From the NCBI RefSeq assembly GCF_030845995.1, contig NZ_CP132719.1:372001-436000 (forward strand): a stretch of DNA of 64,000 bases, read 5' to 3'. Source of the DNA: Geothrix sp. 21YS21S-4 (lineage in GTDB: Bacteria; Acidobacteriota; Holophagae; Holophagales; Holophagaceae). The notes under the pieces were generated by a model. It saw nothing but the letters and a program-made list of their open reading frames with translations. It was not told where the DNA came from and did not search any database. The position numbers and the translations under genes are program-made. Below are positions 30,995 to 63,959 of this stretch, in pieces; the first letter of the stretch is position 1; every line of letters starts with the position of its first letter.

Positions 30995-31148
30995 CGTGGC
31001 TCGAGCCGAGAGGGGAGACCTGGATACGAGGAGGTGGGGAAAGGTTCCTCAGAAGGCATTTTTTGAAGACCATACTTCTTTCGATCTATTTTTTAAATAT
31101 TTAAATAATTAAAATTACAAAAAAATGAATAAGAAAATCACGGCAGGG

Positions 31149-31177
31149 GTGGCGCGCCTGGAGGGGGGGGCTACATT
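31149..31177 (+). promoter_or_regulatory. Stress-module promoter copy 1 (GTGGCG-N17-TACATT) with upstream A/T tract
   Basis: GTGGCG (31149-31154), a 17-bp spacer with a run of eight G, then TACATT (31172-31177). It is preceded by a roughly 60-bp A/T tract (about 31072-31138) that could serve as an UP element. The block from the A/T tract through 'TTCACTCGCTGC' just after the box is nearly the same at 47176-47220. The -10/-35 assignment is inferred; the conservation is seen. Confidence 0.55.
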
Positions 31178-31323
31178 GGGTTCACTCGCTGCTCACCTTG
31201 ACGCAGAAGCGCCAAGATTGCCCCACCGGCTGAGCAGCATCGCTTAACGAGCCCAGGCTGGATTTCCAGACGGGGCAGTGGCTTCGGCCACTTCAGCAGC
31301 CATGGCTGCCATCAGGAGTCGTT
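31178..31323 (+). promoter_or_regulatory. Structured 5' leader, copy 1
   Basis: A 146-nt stretch from the TACATT box to the ATG. Three hairpins near the start codon align with those of copy 2 at 47205-47350: (a) CTGG-ATTT-CCAG 31258-31269 nested in GCCC/GGGC, (b) AGTGGC-TTCG-GCCACT 31277-31292, a very stable UUCG loop, and (c) GCAGCC-AT-GGCTGC 31296-31309, then AGGAG 31314-31318. Stems are kept while bases differ between copies, as in a functional RNA. Confidence 0.55.
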
Positions 31324-31608
31324 ATGACCAAGTACGGAACGCACGATCCCAACGAGCAGCGCCCTGTGGGCGACGAGCCTCAGACGGGGCGGATGGAAGC
31401 GGCCAATACCAACAGCGGGTCCGGCAGCGGTTCCGGGTCCATGGGCGGCAGCCACACCGGCGGGAGCGGGCGGAAGCAGGAGCAGGGTTCCGATTCCTCC
31501 AAGGACTCCTTGAAGGACTCCACCAAGAAGAATTCCGGGACCCAGAGCAACCAGCCCGGAAGCCAGGGCGGCAGCCATTCCGGCGGCACCAGCGGCAACA
31601 AGCGCTAG
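31324..31608 (+). CDS. Small disordered Gly/Ser-rich protein (M-x-x-Y-G-T family, copy 1)
   Basis: A 94-aa, very hydrophilic protein without Cys, Trp or hydrophobic segments. It opens 'MTKYGTHDPNEQRP', has Gly-Ser repeats around 32-48, a Lys/Asp/Ser segment (about 50-72) and ends in Gly-Ser-His-rich sequence with a basic tip. It should be intrinsically disordered, like hydrophilins or GsiB-type stress proteins. The opening matches the paralogue at 47351 (Y4-G5-T6, Asn-rich, Arg-Pro), and both follow the same promoter and leader. AGGAG is 5 nt before the ATG. Not recognised as a named family. Confidence 0.7.
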   Translation: MTKYGTHDPNEQRPVGDEPQTGRMEAANTNSGSGSGSGSMGGSHTGGSGRKQEQGSDSSKDSLKDSTKKNSGTQSNQPGSQGGSHSGGTSGNKR

Positions 31609-31663
31609 ACCTTCCTTCCGCGCTGCGGAGAGAAGCCTGAAGAACTGAAGAAGGGGGTCCGGG

Positions 31664-32403
31664 ACCCCAGACGCCGAACACGCTGCGGCGGGGGTAGACG
31701 GTCCGATTCGATCCATCGTCTCGCTGGCTTTTGGGCCAGTCGCCCGGACTCCAGCACGGGGAAGCCCACGGCCTCTCCGCGCGTCCGTGACCCGGGAATG
31801 GACCCCACCGATCCGAGATCTTCACTTACCTCAAGGAGAGCATCATGAAGCCCACTTACCAAAGTCTGCTTGCCCCTGTGGTACTGATGGCCGTGGGGAC
31901 GGCGCCTCTGATGGCGCGGAACAACGATTCGACCATCGAATCCGCGATCAAGAATTCCTACAACTACAAGACCTACCTCAAGGATGACGACATCAAGGTC
32001 GAGGCCAAGAACGGCGTCGTCACGCTGTCCGGCACCCCAGACGCCGAACACGCTGCGGCGGGGGTAGACGGTCCGATTCGATCCATCGTCTCGCTGGCTT
32101 TTGGGCCAGTCGCCCGGACTCCAGCACGGGGAAGCCCACGGCCTCTCCGCGCGTCCGTGACCCGGGAATGGACCCCACCGATCCGAGATCTTCACTTACC
32201 TCAAGGAGAGCATCATGAAGCCCACTTACCAAAGTCTGCTTGCCCCTGTGGTACTGATGGCCGTGGGGACGGCGCCTCTGATGGCGCGGAACAACGATTC
32301 GACCATCGAATCCGCGATCAAGAATTCCTACAACTACAAGACCTACCTCAAGGATGACGACATCAAGGTCGAGGCCAAGAACGGCGTCGTCACGCTGTCC
32401 GGC
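31664..32403 (+). repeat. Perfect 370-bp tandem duplication
   Basis: Bases 31664-32033 recur without visible difference at 32034-32403. The unit holds the upstream region and first 63 codons of the BON gene. The outer junctions share a short near-match (GTCCGGGACC at about 31657 and GTCCGGCACC at about 32397), suggesting slippage or recombination at microhomology. Identity of both copies means it is recent, or an assembly artefact. Confidence 0.9.
31845..32357 (+). pseudogene. Truncated duplicate of the BON-domain gene
   Basis: Copy 1 of the tandem repeat begins with the same start, ribosome site (AAGGAG) and first 63 codons as the intact BON gene, including signal peptide and most of the first BON domain. 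At the repeat junction it then runs into the upstream DNA of copy 2, giving about 107 unrelated residues before a stop inside copy 2. The intact gene is the one at 32215. A secreted one-BON fragment could still be made, but the fused tail looks meaningless. Confidence 0.8.
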
Positions 32404-32979
32404 ACCGTCTCCGAGTCCTTCCACCGCAGCCTGGCGGAACAGACGGCGGCCGATATCCCCGGCGTGTCGAACGTCAACAACCAGCTCACGGTGAAGGGCG
32501 ACCAGCCCTCCGAGAACTCCGACGCGTGGATCACGGCCAAGGTGAAGAGCGCGCTGCTCTTCCACAAGAACGTGAGCGCGACGGGGACCACGGTGGAAAC
32601 CCAGGACGGCGTCGTGACCCTGCGGGGAGAAGCCGACAGCGCCGCCCAGCGCGAACTCACCGCCCAGTACGCCAAGGATGTGAAGGGCGTGCGGAGCGTA
32701 TCCAACCAGATGACCATCGGGAAGAACGGATCGCCCAAGCTCAAGAGCGGGAGCACCGTCGGCGAGAAGATCGACGACGCCTCCATCACCGCCCAGGTGA
32801 AGTCGGCCCTCCTGTTCCATCAGTCCACGTCGGCGGTGAACACCAAGGTCACCACCAACAAGGGCACCGTGACGCTCCAGGGCGAAGCCAAGAACGCCGC
32901 GGAGAAGGATCTTGTCACCAAGATCGTCGAGGACATCCACGGCGTGAAGCGGGTCGACAACAAGATGCGCGTGCAGTAA
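32215..32979 (+). CDS. Periplasmic protein with three BON domains (OsmY-like)
   Basis: A 254-aa protein with a signal peptide (1-24, ending 'PLMARN') and three BON domains at about 27-92, 98-167 and 180-253. Each has the pattern 'V.xxxGxVTLxGxxxSxxxxxxA...xxGVxxVxNxxxV', for example 'NGVVTLSGTVSE', 'DGVVTLRGEADS' and 'KGTVTLQGEAKN'. BON domains bind phospholipid; OsmY-type proteins protect the envelope in osmotic and stationary-phase stress and act as chaperones. AAGGAG lies 7 nt before the ATG. Its upstream 181 bp are duplicated (see the tandem repeat), so both copies of the promoter region may now feed it. Confidence 0.9.
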   Translation: MKPTYQSLLAPVVLMAVGTAPLMARNNDSTIESAIKNSYNYKTYLKDDDIKVEAKNGVVTLSGTVSESFHRSLAEQTAADIPGVSNVNNQLTVKGDQPSENSDAWITAKVKSALLFHKNVSATGTTVETQDGVVTLRGEADSAAQRELTAQYAKDVKGVRSVSNQMTIGKNGSPKLKSGSTVGEKIDDASITAQVKSALLFHQSTSAVNTKVTTNKGTVTLQGEAKNAAEKDLVTKIVEDIHGVKRVDNKMRVQ

Positions 32980-34885: not shown

Positions 34886-34970
34886 ATCGCCAAGGCTCCA
34901 AGAACTGCATCAAAGACCCTGCTTTTGTCTTTCTTGGGGTCCTTGGCGTCTTGGTGGTGATCCTTATTCT
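34886..34970. repeat. Dispersed inverted repeat, copy 1
   Basis: The left arm CGCCAAGGCTCCAAGAA (34888-34904) pairs with TTCTTGGGGTCCTTGGCG (34931-34948) with one bulge and one mismatch. The right side continues CTTGGTGGTGATC. The same right-arm sequence recurs at 63275-63306. Both copies lie between convergent genes and could act as a two-way terminator. Confidence 0.75.
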
Positions 34971-40872: not shown

Positions 40873-41253
40873 CTATTGGGCGGGGCGGGACTTGAAGAGG
40901 GTCGGCAGCAGGTTCCGGAAGCCGCCCCGCATGCTTTCGACCAGCGAAGAGGCCAGGTCGATGCCCTGCTTCACCCGCCCGTTGACGTCCTTCACCGTGC
41001 GCCCGGCCTCGCCCAGGACGCGGGCGAAGCCGGACACCTCGTCGATGGATTCCCGCAGGGAATCGCTCAGGCCGTCCAGCCGCACCCGCGACGCGTGGAC
41101 GTCGCCGGCGATCTGGGCGAGGTCCCGTTGGGCGCCCTGGAGAAATCTTTCGAAGGTCTGCGCCGTGCGGCGCACTTGCAGGAGCAGGGGGACCGCCGCG
41201 CCCACGAGGAGGACGATGGCCAGAATGAGGACGATCTGGAGGGTCGAGGACAT
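40873..41253 (-). CDS. DUF948-like membrane protein with long amphipathic helix
   Basis: A 126-aa protein with an N-terminal membrane helix (about 5-25) followed by an extended heptad-patterned helix (about 28-105), as in DUF948/YtxG-type general stress proteins. No catalytic motif is present. It follows dps by 25 bp on the same strand and is probably co-transcribed with dps and the 49-aa gene. Confidence 0.68.
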
Positions 41254-41278: not shown

Positions 41279-41758
41279 TCAGGCGACTTCCAGGTGGGCG
41301 CGGAGCATCCACAGGGCCTTGTCCATGGCGCGGCTGACGCTGGTGAACAGGTCGGCGGTGTCCTGGTCCTCCAGTTCCTCCGCCTTGTGGATGGCCTCGC
41401 GCACGTTCTTGGTGTAGCCCTGGAAGCGCGCCACCAGCGCCTTGACGTGGGTGGTGCTGTCCTTGGCGTCGAGGGGGTATTCCTCCAGCCGGGATTTCTG
41501 CCCTGCCACGCGGACGGTTCCCAGCGCCTGCCCGCCCATGGTGACGGTGCGCTCCGCCAGCTCGTCCACGAAGGTGGAGAGCTGCGTGTAGAGGGAGTCG
41601 AACAGCAGGTGCAGGGCGTAGAAGTTCGAGCCCTTCACGTTCCAGTGGGCCTGCTTGGTCTGGTAGGCCAGGTCGATGGTGTCGGCCAGGGCCTGGTTCA
41701 GCAGGTTTACCAGCGTGGTGGTGGTCTTCGCGTCGAAAAGGACGGCTTGAACGGCCAT
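41279..41758 (-). CDS. dps: Dps-family ferritin-like DNA protection protein
   Basis: This 159-aa four-helix protein has the Dps ferroxidase signature 'TKQAHWNVKGSNFYALHLLF' plus 'DSLYTQLSTFVDELAERTVTMGG', with the His, Asp and Glu that bind iron across the dimer interface. Dps forms 12-mers, oxidises Fe2+ with H2O2 and shields DNA in starvation and oxidative stress. The N-terminus is short and not Lys-rich, so direct DNA binding is uncertain. The start has GGAG about 4 nt upstream. Neighbours are other stress-type small genes. Confidence 0.94.
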   Translation of the reverse strand: MAVQAVLFDAKTTTTLVNLLNQALADTIDLAYQTKQAHWNVKGSNFYALHLLFDSLYTQLSTFVDELAERTVTMGGQALGTVRVAGQKSRLEEYPLDAKDSTTHVKALVARFQGYTKNVREAIHKAEELEDQDTADLFTSVSRAMDKALWMLRAHLEVA

Positions 41759-41806: not shown

Positions 41807-41956
41807 TCAGATGGGGCGCCGTCCCTGGATGATGCGGATGAGGATGAGGATGATGGCGATCACCAGGAGCAGGTGGATGAAGCCGCCGATGGTGTAGGCG
41901 CTCACGAGGCCGAGGGCCCAGAGGACGAGAAGCACGACTGCGATGGTCCAGAGCAT
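41807..41956 (-). CDS. Lmo0937-family small membrane protein (DUF5670)
   Basis: A 49-aa protein made of two membrane helices separated by 'AYTIGGFIH' and ending in a basic 'RIIQGRRPI'. The sequence 'MLWTIAVVLLVLWALGLVS' at the start and the overall pattern match the widespread lmo0937 family, often found in stress regions, of unknown role. AAGGAGG lies 4 nt before the ATG. It is the first gene of the dps operon and is preceded by an AT-rich gap of about 590 bp that should contain the promoter. Confidence 0.85.
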   Translation of the reverse strand: MLWTIAVVLLVLWALGLVSAYTIGGFIHLLLVIAIILILIRIIQGRRPI

Positions 41957-42547
41957 GAATCCTCCTTGGTGGTTAAAAAGGGGTTTTCAACTGCACGAAA
42001 AGGATCGCTATCGTTCCATGGAGCTTTCAAAATCATCCGGGAAAGCCGGAAAGGGCGGCTGGGCATGAAGCACGCGCTGCCCGAAAAGGCGCCAGGAAGC
42101 ACGCATGTTCCGGCAATGCCAACGGTGCCGGGGCTCTTTCGGCCCCTCTGCCGGAAGCGTAGTTAAAAAGAACTATGAGAGATTGCTTCGTAAGTATATT
42201 AAGAATGAACTGTTGTTTGGCACCGATCTCAATCAAAAACCTTCGCGCCTTGACGCCAAGGGGAACGACAAGGGGGAATGTAGGCCACCGGGCTCTCCGC
42301 GCCAGTTCCTGCCTGAATTTTCTTAGTTCTATTTTTCATAAGATTAGTGTTTTCAATTTAAATATTCAAAAAAACTGAAGCCATGAAAAAACGTGATAGG
42401 ATGAGGGGAACCTTTGGCGCCGCTCCCGCAGATTTGGGAATTTTCAATGCTTAAAGAGAAATAAATGCGCGATCAGGCGAAAGGATGGCGAAAATCCATC
42501 CCGCATCCTTGCGCAATTCCGCCCCGGACACCATCCATGGAGCCGTC
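41957..42547. other. AT-rich divergent intergenic region
   Basis: About 590 bp between the dps-operon start (-) and the YihY gene (+). GC drops sharply in 42165-42260 and 42310-42470. It must hold promoters for both sides. I found no copy of the TACATT/leader module, no tRNA and no credible ORF; there is one GC hairpin near 42128-42160. Nothing else supportable. Confidence 0.5.
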
Positions 42548-47033: not shown

Positions 47034-47175
47034 CGCGTGAAAAGGAAGAATTGGAATGCGCGGGAATCAGGAAAGGTTCCGCGTGAATTTTGGATCGATA
47101 TGGATTGATGCTTTGTTTTTTTAAATATTGAAATATTTAATTTTATAAAAAAAATATAAGAAAATGGCGGCAAAG

Positions 47176-47204
47176 CTGGCGCGGTCCGAGGGGGGGATTA
47201 CATT
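47176..47204 (+). promoter_or_regulatory. Stress-module promoter copy 2 (CTGGCG-N17-TACATT) with upstream A/T tract
   Basis: CTGGCG (47176-47181), a 17-bp spacer with a run of seven G, TACATT (47199-47204), then 'TTCACTCGCTGC'. An A/T tract at about 47093-47165 precedes it. Spacing, G-run and flanks match copy 1 at 31149. There is no terminator between aat and this site that I can identify, so aat read-through may also enter. Confidence 0.55.
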
Positions 47205-47350
47205 GGATTCACTCGCTGCCCACCTTGCCGCCTCACGCGCAAGGCCTGCCGGATTCGGCTGGACAGCCCTCACGTAACGAAGCCCAGCCACATTCCTGGC
47301 TGGCGGTGGCCTCGGCCATCCATGCAGCTCACCCTGCAAAAGGAGGCGTT
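47205..47350 (+). promoter_or_regulatory. Structured 5' leader, copy 2
   Basis: A 146-nt leader, the same length as copy 1. Hairpins: (a) CCAGCCA-CATTCC-TGGCTGG 47284-47303, (b) GGTGGC-CTCG-GCCATC 47305-47320 (one G-U pair), (c) TGCAG-CTCACC-CTGCA 47323-47338, then AGGAGG and ATG. Positions relative to the ATG agree with copy 1 within 1-2 nt. 'TAACGA' is shared upstream of hairpin a. Confidence 0.55.
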
Positions 47351-47623
47351 ATGCCTAATTACGGAACCCCCCAGAATCCCAACAGCCGTCCGGAAAGCAA
47401 TCCCCGCCCTGGCGAGCAGCGGCCTGGGGAGCAGCAGCCCGGCATCTCGCCCAACAGCCCGTTCCCGGATCCGGTCCAGGCCACCGGCAACCTGCGCACT
47501 CCGGCCCCGGGTCGCCAGCAGGAGGAGGATCTCTCCAAGCAGAAGAAGGACAAGGACCAGTGGGACGACGCGTCCAAGAAGTCCGGCCAGCTGGGCGATC
47601 CCATGAGGGAAGCTGAAGAGTAG
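47351..47623 (+). CDS. Small disordered Pro/Gln-rich protein (M-x-x-Y-G-T family, copy 2)
   Basis: A 90-aa hydrophilic protein starting 'MPNYGTPQNPNSRPE', with 'RPGEQRPGEQQPG' -like short repeats (about 20-33), a Pro/Thr-rich middle and a charged Lys/Asp/Glu end (about 58-90). It has one Trp, no Cys and no signal peptide, and should be disordered. It shares the first residues and the whole upstream module with the 31324 gene; the bodies have diverged. AGGAGG is 5 nt before the ATG. A GSP39-like dehydrogenase and LigD follow. Confidence 0.7.
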   Translation: MPNYGTPQNPNSRPESNPRPGEQRPGEQQPGISPNSPFPDPVQATGNLRTPAPGRQQEEDLSKQKKDKDQWDDASKKSGQLGDPMREAEE

Positions 47624-47646
47624 TCCGTTCAGATTCCCCCATAGGG

Positions 47647-47705
47647 CATCCGGGATCCGATACCAGCGGAGGAAGGCTTTCCGCGCGTTGGATCCCGGAT
47701 GTTTT
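47647..47705 (+). terminator. Long two-tier hairpin terminator
   Basis: A perfect 12-bp stem (47647-47658 with 47690-47701) encloses a 31-nt loop that itself contains a 5-bp GCGGA/TCCGC hairpin, followed by TTTT. It separates the small-protein gene from the SDR gene. Confidence 0.7.
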
Positions 47706-47740
47706 GCGCTAAAAAATCAACACTTAGCAGCGAGGTGTCC

Positions 47741-48750: not shown

Positions 48751-51234
48751 ATGGCTGCGGGGAATCTCGCGCGCTACCAGGCGAAGCGGAATTTCGCAGT
48801 GACGCCCGAACCGCAGGAGGGAGGCGAGCCCCACCCGGCCGCCCTTCAGTTCGTGATCCAGAAGCACTGGGCCCGACGCCTCCACTACGACTTCCGGCTG
48901 GAGTTGGAAGGCACGATGAAGAGCTGGGCCGTTCCCCGCGGCCCCAGCTACGATCCCGCCGACAAGCGGATGGCGGTCCACGTCGAGGATCATCCGATCT
49001 CCTACAACCGCTTCGAGGGCGTGATCCCTCCCAGGCAGTACGGCGCGGGCCGGGTGATCATCTGGGACAGGGGCGTGTGGGTGCCCGTGGGCGATCCCGC
49101 CGAAGGCTACCGCGCCGGCAAGCTCAAGTTCGAGCTGTGGGGCCACAAGCTGCGCGGCCGCTGGACCCTCGTCCGGATGCGGGCCCGCGACGAACGCCAG
49201 GACGCGTGGCTGCTGATCAAGGAGCGCGACGGGCTTGAACGGAAGGCCGGGGACTTCAGCGTCGTGGACGAACTTCCCGACAGCGTGGCGAGGCTCCCGC
49301 CGCCTCCTTCCCCGACGAAGAGGCCGCATTCGGCCATTGCGGCAGAGGTGCCCACCGCCCCGCGCAAGCGGTTGCCGGAGGCGCTCGCTCCGATGCTCGC
49401 CACCCTGGTGGACCGCCCTCCCGACGATCCCGATGCCTGGATCTTCGAGATCAAGTTCGACGGCTACCGGATCCTGGCCCGGATCAGCGGAGGGAAGGCG
49501 CGGCTGTTCACCCGCCGCGGCCACGACTGGACGGCGCGCCTTCCCCACCTCGTGAAGGCTCTGGAAGCCCTCCGCCTGAAGCCCGGATGGCTGGACGGGG
49601 AGATCGTCATCCAGGACGAGCAGGGCCGCACCGATTTCCAGGCCCTGCAGAACGCCTTCGAAGCGGAGCGCACCGGGCGGATCGCCTATCACCTGTTCGA
49701 CCTCCCGCACTACGACGCCCGCGATCTGACGGGCGTTCCGCTGGCGCAGCGGCGCGAGCTTCTGGGCTCCCTCCTGCGAGACGCGACCTTTCCGCTGGGC
49801 TTCAGCGGGACCTTCGAGGCGCCTCCCGCACAATTGGTGGCGTCCGCCTGCCGCCTCGGGCTGGAGGGCGTGATCGGCAAGCGGCGGGACGGAGCTTACG
49901 TGTCCGGCCGCTCGCGGGAGTGGATCAAGCTGAAGTGCAGCCAGCGGCAGGAATTCGTCATTGGCGGGTGGACGGATCCGCAGGGCTCGCGCCAGGGATT
50001 CGGATCGCTGCTCCTGGGCGTCCACGCGCCCGGCGGCGACCTCACGTACGTGGGCCGCGTGGGCGCGGGCTTCACCGCCGCCAGCCTGGCCCACCTCCGC
50101 ACGGAACTGCAGAAGCTGGCGGTGGCACGGCGGCCCTTCGCCGGTCCCACGGAGCAGGAATCCAGGGCCCACTGGGTGAAGCCCCGGCTCATCGCGGAGG
50201 TGTCCTTCTCCTCCTGGACCCGCACCGGTCGCATCCGCCAGGGCGTTTTCCACGGGCTGCGCGACGACAAGCCGCCCGCGGCCATCGTCCGCGAAGCGCC
50301 GCAGGTGGCGCTGGGGCCCGATGCGGAAGAGCCACTGCCCGCCCGGCTGCGCGTGTCCCATCCGGAGCGGGTGATCGACCGGGCGACCGGGATCACCAAG
50401 CTGGAGGTGGTCCGCCACTACGCCCGGGTGGGCGAGCTGATGATGGCGCACCTCGCCCACCGGCCGGCGGCGATGCTCCGCGCGCCCCAGGGCGTGGGCC
50501 GGCCGACCTTCTTCCAGAAGCACTTCGAGGAGGAGCCCCTCGACGGCTGGATCAAGCTCGATCCCGCCCTGGAGCCGGACCACGCGCCCTGGGCAGAGAT
50601 CGCGGGGCCCGAAGGGCTGCTGTCCGCGGCCCAGATGAACGTCGTGGAATTCCACACCTGGAACGCCCTCAGCACGCGCATCGATCGGCCCGACCGGATG
50701 ACCTTCGACCTGGATCCCGGCGCGGGCGTCGCGTGGGAGGCCATCCGCGAGGGCGCCGTCCTCGTGAAAACCCTCCTCGAAGAACTGGGCCTCGTTCCCT
50801 TCGTGAAGACCAGCGGCGGGAAGGGGCTGCACGTGGTGGTGCCCATCCGGCGGCTGCACGGATGGGAAGCCGTGAAGGGCTTCTCCCGGGCCATCGTCCA
50901 GCACCTCGCGGTGACCCTCCCCGCGCTGTTCGTCGCCAAGAGCGGCGCCAAGAACCGCGTCGGGAAGATCTTCGTGGACTACCTGCGGAACGGATTCGGA
51001 GCCACCACCGTCTGCGCGTGGTCGGCCCGGGCCCGGCCGGGGCTGGGCGTCTCCGTCCCCATCACGTGGGATGAACTTCCGGCCCTGGAGGGGGCGGCGC
51101 ACTGGACCATTCGGAACGTCGATGCGCGGCTGGCGGTGGGCGACGCCCCCTGGAAGGCCTACGGGAGCGCCGCACGCGGCCTTTCGGCGGCCATGAAGCG
51201 CCTGGGCTACCGTCCGCCCGCGGAAGAGGAATAG
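48751..51234 (+). CDS. ligD: Multifunctional non-homologous end-joining DNA ligase LigD
   Basis: An 827-aa protein with all three LigD modules in the Pseudomonas order. The 3'-phosphoesterase (about 10-160) has 'HWARRLHYDFRLE'. The ATP-dependent ligase (about 210-520) has motif I 'EIKFDGYR', where Lys is adenylated, and motif IV 'LEGVIGKRRDGAY'. The primase-type polymerase (about 540-815) has 'TFDLDPGAGVAWE', with the two metal-binding Asp, and 'TSGGKGLHVVVPI'. With Ku it repairs double-strand breaks in non-growing or desiccated cells. GGAGGAGGG precedes the ATG. It is convergent with ku, 4 bp apart. Confidence 0.97.
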   Translation: MAAGNLARYQAKRNFAVTPEPQEGGEPHPAALQFVIQKHWARRLHYDFRLELEGTMKSWAVPRGPSYDPADKRMAVHVEDHPISYNRFEGVIPPRQYGAGRVIIWDRGVWVPVGDPAEGYRAGKLKFELWGHKLRGRWTLVRMRARDERQDAWLLIKERDGLERKAGDFSVVDELPDSVARLPPPPSPTKRPHSAIAAEVPTAPRKRLPEALAPMLATLVDRPPDDPDAWIFEIKFDGYRILARISGGKARLFTRRGHDWTARLPHLVKALEALRLKPGWLDGEIVIQDEQGRTDFQALQNAFEAERTGRIAYHLFDLPHYDARDLTGVPLAQRRELLGSLLRDATFPLGFSGTFEAPPAQLVASACRLGLEGVIGKRRDGAYVSGRSREWIKLKCSQRQEFVIGGWTDPQGSRQGFGSLLLGVHAPGGDLTYVGRVGAGFTAASLAHLRTELQKLAVARRPFAGPTEQESRAHWVKPRLIAEVSFSSWTRTGRIRQGVFHGLRDDKPPAAIVREAPQVALGPDAEEPLPARLRVSHPERVIDRATGITKLEVVRHYARVGELMMAHLAHRPAAMLRAPQGVGRPTFFQKHFEEEPLDGWIKLDPALEPDHAPWAEIAGPEGLLSAAQMNVVEFHTWNALSTRIDRPDRMTFDLDPGAGVAWEAIREGAVLVKTLLEELGLVPFVKTSGGKGLHVVVPIRRLHGWEAVKGFSRAIVQHLAVTLPALFVAKSGAKNRVGKIFVDYLRNGFGATTVCAWSARARPGLGVSVPITWDELPALEGAAHWTIRNVDARLAVGDAPWKAYGSAARGLSAAMKRLGYRPPAEEE

Positions 51235-63227: not shown

Positions 63228-63308
63228 AAAGGTCACCACCAAGACACCAAGGCACCAAGAAAAGCTTTTTTCAGTTCTTGGCGTTCTTGGCGTCTTGGTG
63301 GTGATCTT
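63228..63308. repeat. Dispersed inverted repeat, copy 2
   Basis: The left arm starting GGTCACCACCAAGACACC (63231) pairs over about 30 nt with the right arm TTCTTGGCGTTCTTGGCGTC... ending GGTGGTGATC (to about 63306), with few mismatches and a small loop at AAAGCTTTTTT. The right arm repeats copy 1 at 34931-34962. It lies between two convergent genes. Confidence 0.8.
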
Positions 63309-63959
63309 TCATCCCAGCCGCACGGTCCGCTCGCACCGCGCGGCGAGGCCGGGGTTGTGGGTGACGAGCAGGGTGGTGGGGCGCAGGTCGGCGTGGAGGC
63401 CCAGGAGGAACCCGAAGACCTCTTCGGCGGTGGCGGGGTCCAGGTTGCCCGTGGGTTCGTCCAGGAGCCACAGCGCGGGTTTCCTGACCAGGGCCCGGGC
63501 CAGCCCGGCGCGGGCGGCCTGGCCTCCGGAGAGCTGGCCCGGAAGGCGCTCGCCGAGATCCCCCAGGCCCACGATGGACAGCAACTGTCCGATCCAGGCC
63601 TCCCCTTCCGGAGACACGTTACCTTCGATGAGGAGGGGCATCCGCAGGTTCTCGCGCACGGTGAACTCGGGCAGGAGGTGGGGCTGCTGGAAGGCCAGGC
63701 CCACGCGGCGGCGGCGGTAGAGGGCCCGGGCCTCGGCGCCTTCGGGAACGGGCGAGTCGCCCACCGTGATCCCGCCCTCCTCCCAGTGGTCCAGGCCCGC
63801 GATGCAGTTGAGGAGGGTGGTCTTCCCCACGCCGGAGACGCCCACGACGGCGCAGAGGCTGCCCGCCTCGATCTCCAGGGAGAACCCGTCGAAGACCGGA
63901 TGCGCGTTCCCGGGATAGGTCTTCCTCAGGTCTCGGATGGAAAGGCTCTGTCCGATCAT
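63309..63959 (-). CDS. ABC transporter ATP-binding protein (LolD/MacB-like)
   Basis: A 216-aa ATPase: Walker A 'GVSGVGKTTLLN' (about 42), Q-loop 'LAFQQPHLLPEFTV', signature 'LSGGQAARAGLARALV', Walker B 'LWLLDEPTGNLD' and H-loop 'LLVTHNPG'. The Q-loop and 'EPTGNLD' place it in the MacB/LolD/FtsE group that works with FtsX-type permeases on lipoproteins or macromolecules. The start overlaps the upstream permease stop (ATGA). Confidence 0.93.
   Translation of the reverse strand: MIGQSLSIRDLRKTYPGNAHPVFDGFSLEIEAGSLCAVVGVSGVGKTTLLNCIAGLDHWEEGGITVGDSPVPEGAEARALYRRRRVGLAFQQPHLLPEFTVRENLRMPLLIEGNVSPEGEAWIGQLLSIVGLGDLGERLPGQLSGGQAARAGLARALVRKPALWLLDEPTGNLDPATAEEVFGFLLGLHADLRPTTLLVTHNPGLAARCERTVRLG

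Follow-up and report, generated by a model that had tools for sequence, protein, structure and literature searches.

The window (the whole stretch of DNA analysed, 64,000 nucleotides of Geothrix sp. 21YS21S-4) contains two distant intergenic regions that precede genes for small disordered proteins. They raise the question whether a common promoter is coupled here to a structured, cis-acting RNA leader, or whether the two regions are alike merely by inheritance. Their likeness, pointed out in a preliminary description of this DNA, is real: positions 31089-31340 and 47117-47367 share 73.5% identity over ~252 nt (E 7e-28, BLASTN within the window), and the same leader pair was recovered in a whole-genome search with E 8.7e-29. 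No further copy of the promoter-leader region was found in the 3,078,440-base genome, which holds only these two. The local alignment of the copies runs from the A/T tract to ~17 nt into the coding regions, and the similarity extends, besides this tract, to the block TAAGAAAAT and to AAAGGTTCC further upstream. Read directly, the distance from TACATT to ATG is indeed 152 nt in both copies (31172 to 31324 and 47199 to 47351) and TACATTGGNTTCACTCGCTGC is exact in both, as described earlier. At the 5' end of the leader the 12-nt TTCACTCGCTGC is strictly kept in both copies.

The two-copy module is so far known from one genome. A core of 24 specified bases was absent from 76 other genomes of the family when ≤3 mismatches were allowed, and no leader homologue was found at a second BON-Dps locus of the same genome or at the loci of ten relatives. 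A search of ~85,000 genomes for an exact pattern of 17 bases gave no homologue; the matches that turned up in contigs of GTDB and IMG/VR were attributed to chance, as they had no adjoining G-run or A/T tract and came from scattered hosts. Covariance-model matches in relatives (L087, L088 and L091; 14-21 bits) were also judged to be chance, their alignments being gapped or partial and not leader-like; those in L087 and L088, read in sequence, appear protein-coding.

The promoter elements of the two copies recur at a third site, on the opposite strand, which the preliminary description had missed and which precedes a DUF5670-Dps-DUF948 operon:

31040..31048, + strand: upstream AAAGGTTCC block of copy 1, a possible activator site, invariant in all three promoters
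31074..31132, + strand: A/T tract of copy 1, reaching 92% A+T over 50 nt (the window as a whole has 69% G+C)
31150..31177, + strand: core promoter TGGCGCG-N15-TACATT of copy 1, exact, 0 mismatches
47072..47080, + strand: upstream AAAGGTTCC block of copy 2, invariant in all three promoters
47115..47166, + strand: A/T tract of copy 2, up to 96% A+T per 50 nt
47177..47204, + strand: core promoter TGGCGCG-N15-TACATT of copy 2, exact
42277..42304, - strand: core promoter of the third copy, exact TGGCGCG-N15-TACATT, without the shared leader
42306..42416, - strand: upstream elements of the third promoter, namely its A/T tract, TAAGAAAAT block and AAAGGTTCC block

In the third promoter the A/T tract, TAAGAAAAT, GGCA and AAAGGTTCC keep the order seen at the other two sites, but the leader that follows, ~320 nt long, is a different one. 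Among the parts originally listed as shared, the A/T tract, GGCG and TACATT are present at all three sites; because the third copy is without the long G-run, the latter is not a constant part of the promoter. The third leader also holds a CCTTGGCGTCAAGGCGC-type sequence (42225-42275, - strand), possibly a dispersed intergenic repeat. A separate 46-bp repeat pair (34921-34965 and 63264-63309, 87% identical) may be of the same dispersed kind.

TGGCGCG-N15-TACATT has three exact matches in the window, where 0.8 would be expected even with 2 mismatches allowed. These three, which fall within 16 kb, are the only exact matches in the 3.08-Mb genome (~0.1 expected by simple arithmetic). A profile of the three promoters scores 87, 83 and 75 bits here and ≤20 bits elsewhere in 77 genomes. 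TGGCGCG and TACATT are always the same distance apart, while the distance from GGCA to TGGCGCG differs by one between sites; this points to a core promoter made of two parts. On this comparison the promoter module is well supported as a shared element. Set against a sigma-70 promoter (TTGACA and TATAAT, 16-18 nt apart), TACATT agrees with TATAAT at 4/6 positions, and the -35 element, at 17 nt, is poor, agreeing at ~3/6. In a sigma-70 scan the threshold was not reached at the candidate sites and nothing was found in the copy 1 region.

Downstream of the core promoter, copies 1 and 2 continue into the leaders:

31178..31323, + strand: structured 5' leader of copy 1, with a P1/P2/P3 domain, hairpins a, b and c and a ribosome-binding site (z -2.6; common structure)
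47205..47350, + strand: structured 5' leader of copy 2 (z -2.2; common structure)

Each leader alone folds better than nearly all of its shuffles, the z-scores being modest. Hairpins a, b and c, noted in the preliminary description, are present in both copies, and in hairpin b the pairs of AGUGGC/GCCACU and GGUGGC/GCCAUC differ and still form. A 5' domain resembling a three-way junction, which had gone unreported, precedes them. With an automatic alignment the consensus energy was -31.6 against a shuffled mean of -20.2, and 3/1000 column shuffles, which preserved the conservation pattern, were as low. In a structure-guided alignment 31 of the 39 pairs are unchanged and in 6 both partners have changed; a further pair has changed in a single partner and 1 is broken. 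Four of the six double changes form hairpin a's inner stem (CUGG/CCAG vs GCCA/UGGC), and the other two fall in hairpin b and P1, one each. Substitutions occur in 14/78 paired and 28/61 unpaired columns (P 0.0007) and all 14 gap columns are unpaired, counts that lean towards structure because this alignment was fitted to the structure by hand. The automatic alignment yields 3-4 double changes, 3 of which count for that structure, a level that 49/500 shuffles reach. Sliding the partners by 1-3 columns reduced the paired cells from 99% to 21-40%. Since just two leaders can be compared, the covariation hints at a shared structure but does not prove it. Within the window none of the Rfam families reached its gathering threshold (best sub-threshold matches E 1.1-2). 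Judged from these two sequences, the leader is likely a functional RNA.

The genes behind the leaders, and a hairpin beyond the second of them, are as follows:

31324..31608, + strand: P0001, small disordered hydrophilin-like protein of 94 aa, MTKYGT... (GRAVY -1.60, Gly 21.3%)
47351..47623, + strand: P0002, small disordered hydrophilin-like protein of 90 aa, MPNYGT... (GRAVY -1.80, Gly 8.9%)
47642..47705, + strand: strong hairpin into UUUU after P0002, a possible terminator (-41 kcal/mol for 47636-47715, z -4.6)

P0001 and P0002 are 29% identical and both begin with MxxYGT. Neither has a Pfam or NCBIfam match, and no relatives of P0002 were found in a GTDB contig search. Matches in relatives to profiles of P0001 and of P0001 plus P0002 were weak and of low complexity, and were rejected. 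Hydrophilins have been defined by Gly > 6% and GRAVY < -1, in a paper that itself calls this definition insufficient (PMC4190154); further criteria are a mean hydrophilicity > 1, and induction by water or osmotic stress together with protection. Both proteins resemble hydrophilins in Gly content, GRAVY value and disordered composition; they belong to no sequence family. The hairpin after P0002 may end the transcript, so that P0002 may be monocistronic; a terminator scan limited to loops of ≤8 did not flag it. No comparable terminator-like site was found after P0001.

Several genes around the three promoters are related to stress:

41807..41956, - strand: small membrane protein of the DUF5670 / lmo0937 family, encoded by the first gene behind the third promoter (PF18919 E 2.6e-16; NF033488)
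41279..41758, - strand: Dps, starvation/stationary-phase DNA protection (NF006975 193 bits, cut-off 114)
40873..41253, - strand: DUF948-like membrane protein (PF06103 E 9e-9, narrowly missing the cut-off)
32215..32979, + strand: OsmY-like protein that carries three BON domains, encoded downstream of P0001 (PF04972 E 1.7e-56; OsmY model below cut-off)

The island as a whole encodes OPT, BON/OsmY-like, YtxH, Nramp, Rieske oxidoreductase, Dps, BrkB, ClpS, ClpA, Aat and SDR proteins. A 380-bp tandem duplication (31657-32036 and 32027-32406, 99.7% identical) has doubled the beginning of the BON gene along with the region upstream of it; the first copy (31657-32036) is a truncated or fused gene. Downstream of SDR a long ORF (~48763-51234, + strand) resembles, by eye, ATP-dependent DNA ligase D.

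The best explanation, to which we assign a probability of roughly 0.55, is a local stress-control module in which one promoter is shared by three stress units and two of the mRNAs carry the same folded leader of ~146 nt. For this module the analysis shows the shared sequence, the fixed spacing, a predicted common fold maintained while loops drift, and the stress-related neighbour genes. TGGCGCG and TACATT would form a -35/-10-like core for RNA polymerase in an alternative or stress-specific form, possibly assisted by an upstream activator. The shared stress promoter would drive the two mRNAs, and the structured leader would set their translation or stability. Our best guess from the folding models is that the leader acts in cis and not as a temperature switch: it may stabilise the mRNA, or it may keep the ribosome-binding site, which follows hairpin c, ready for translation or under the control of a factor, perhaps one that is bound there. 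The outcome would be strong production of hydrophilin-like proteins under stress.

The 5' UTR of E. coli ompA is the type example of a structured 5' leader that sets mRNA stability or translation. The leaders described here share with ompA-type leaders the hairpins between promoter and ribosome-binding site, a start site that is not concealed and stems conserved better than loops; they differ in having no sequence or Rfam relation and in being known from one genome. Dps and OsmY belong to bacterial stationary-phase/osmotic stress regulons, governed by sigma-S in enterobacteria. The gene types under the shared promoter fit such regulons and (C)TACATT is similar to the -10 region of sigma-S promoters, whereas the TGGCGCG element, the A/T tract and the AAAGGTTCC block fall outside that model.

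Promoter and leader might instead have been copied together not long ago by plain segmental duplication, their likeness being inherited without RNA function. This is possible, if somewhat unlikely: G+C-rich leaders fold anyway, the single-sequence z-scores are modest, the only two copies lie 16 kb apart in one genome, the fresh 380-bp tandem duplication (31657-32406) indicates that local duplication occurs here, and shuffling the automatic alignment can give as many double changes (49/500). However, substitutions avoid the stems, the consensus fold beats 997/1000 column shuffles, the inner stem of hairpin a differs between the copies yet pairs in each, and the leaders are more alike (70% identity) than the coding regions (56%; shuffled coding 49%). 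A trans-acting small RNA made from this promoter, with the coding region secondary, would suit the compact fold, the strong promoter-like region and the strict TTCACTCGCTGC at the 5' end, but is highly improbable given that the terminator scan found no terminator between leader and ATG, that a good ribosome-binding site, AGGAG, stands 4-5 nt before ATG in both copies, and that the N-terminal YGT is kept. The earlier proposal of a promoter and structured leader ahead of small disordered proteins is supported by the threefold exact motif, the column shuffles and the concentration of substitutions in loops. Of the leader types that it suggested, a protein-binding leader and a stress riboregulator are both compatible with these results; a thermosensor is not supported, as the exposure predicted for the ribosome-binding site and AUG is nearly flat from 15 to 60 C. 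A long-range UAACG/CGUUA pairing that includes the A of AUG does exist in both copies, and the helix appears in the consensus fold and in the minimum-energy fold of copy 2 when the RNA is cut at AUG. With 34 more nt of coding sequence, however, its probability falls to 0.00-0.03 at all temperatures from 15 to 60 C, and over this range predicted AUG exposure goes from 0.96 to 0.80 in copy 1 and stays at ~0.55 in copy 2, with no melting. At 15 C the AUG is predicted to be unpaired at 0.96/0.55 and the SD at 0.25/0.46 (copy 1/copy 2), so that pairing is only partial. Located directly 3' of hairpin c, the start site is predicted to be largely exposed in copy 1 and partly exposed in copy 2. As no AUG-covering helix is predicted once coding sequence is included, a thermosensor or other switch hiding the start site is very unlikely, and a leader that stabilises the mRNA or provides ribosome-binding-site context is favoured.

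The promoters, too, allow another reading, namely that they are drifted enhancer-dependent sigma-54 promoters, with the A/T tract for bending, AAAGGTTCC as enhancer site and -24/-12 elements at CGGCA-N5-GGCGCG. BON-DUF5670-Dps operons occur at a second locus of the same genome (L229) and in relatives, some with a small disordered first gene. That of L229 (1258-1300 and 1706-1894) reads BON-DUF5670-Dps-DUF948-YtxH, with a small Pro-rich disordered first gene. Against the consensus TGGCACG-N4-TTGCW with GG-N10-GC, L229 has a sigma-54-like site after an A/T tract with 10/12 positions, and together with four relatives' operons (L230, L232, L233 and L237) it carries TGGC-N7-NTGC directly after the tract (8-10/12); 1.75% of random 125-nt segments reach 9/12. 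L231 has only a weak GG-N10-GC site (7/12), L239 an A/T tract only beside DUF5670, and in L234, L235, L236 and L238 no such tract was found in the stretch read. GG-N10-GC is also present in copies 1 and 2. The spacing of sigma-54 promoters is strict, and agreement with the consensus is only 7/12 and 6/12 in copies 1 and 2, while copy 3, with a spacing one longer, has no GG-N10-GC site. What is constant at all three sites is TGGCGCG-N15-TACATT. The reading as drifted sigma-54 promoters is unlikely. The relatives' promoters resemble those of the window in the A/T tract followed by TGGC, in similar downstream genes and often in a small disordered first gene, but the -12 element is inadequate in all three window copies. 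This cassette is missing downstream of Aat in those relatives of the genus that were examined; judging by its sequence, the next gene in many of them resembles glgC or ftsZ. Conceivably, the island was rebuilt from a BON-DUF5670-Dps operon of this kind and its promoter changed.

It is quite doubtful whether the local stress-control module also represents a new stress-linked class of cis-regulatory leaders (a three-way-junction-like domain plus three hairpins), ligand-sensing or protein-binding and controlling hydrophilin-like proteins, and whether, along with it, TGGCGCG-N15-TACATT preceded by an A/T tract is a stress promoter type not described before. Nothing on this module was found in the literature. 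The sigma-54-like sites in relatives, compared with the promoters of the window, suggest a change of promoter type at the stress island. The exact promoter motif and the RNA fold are directly testable. In a bacterium whose gene regulation is little known, the module points to a small co-regulated set of Dps, an OsmY-like protein, DUF5670 and two hydrophilin-like proteins.
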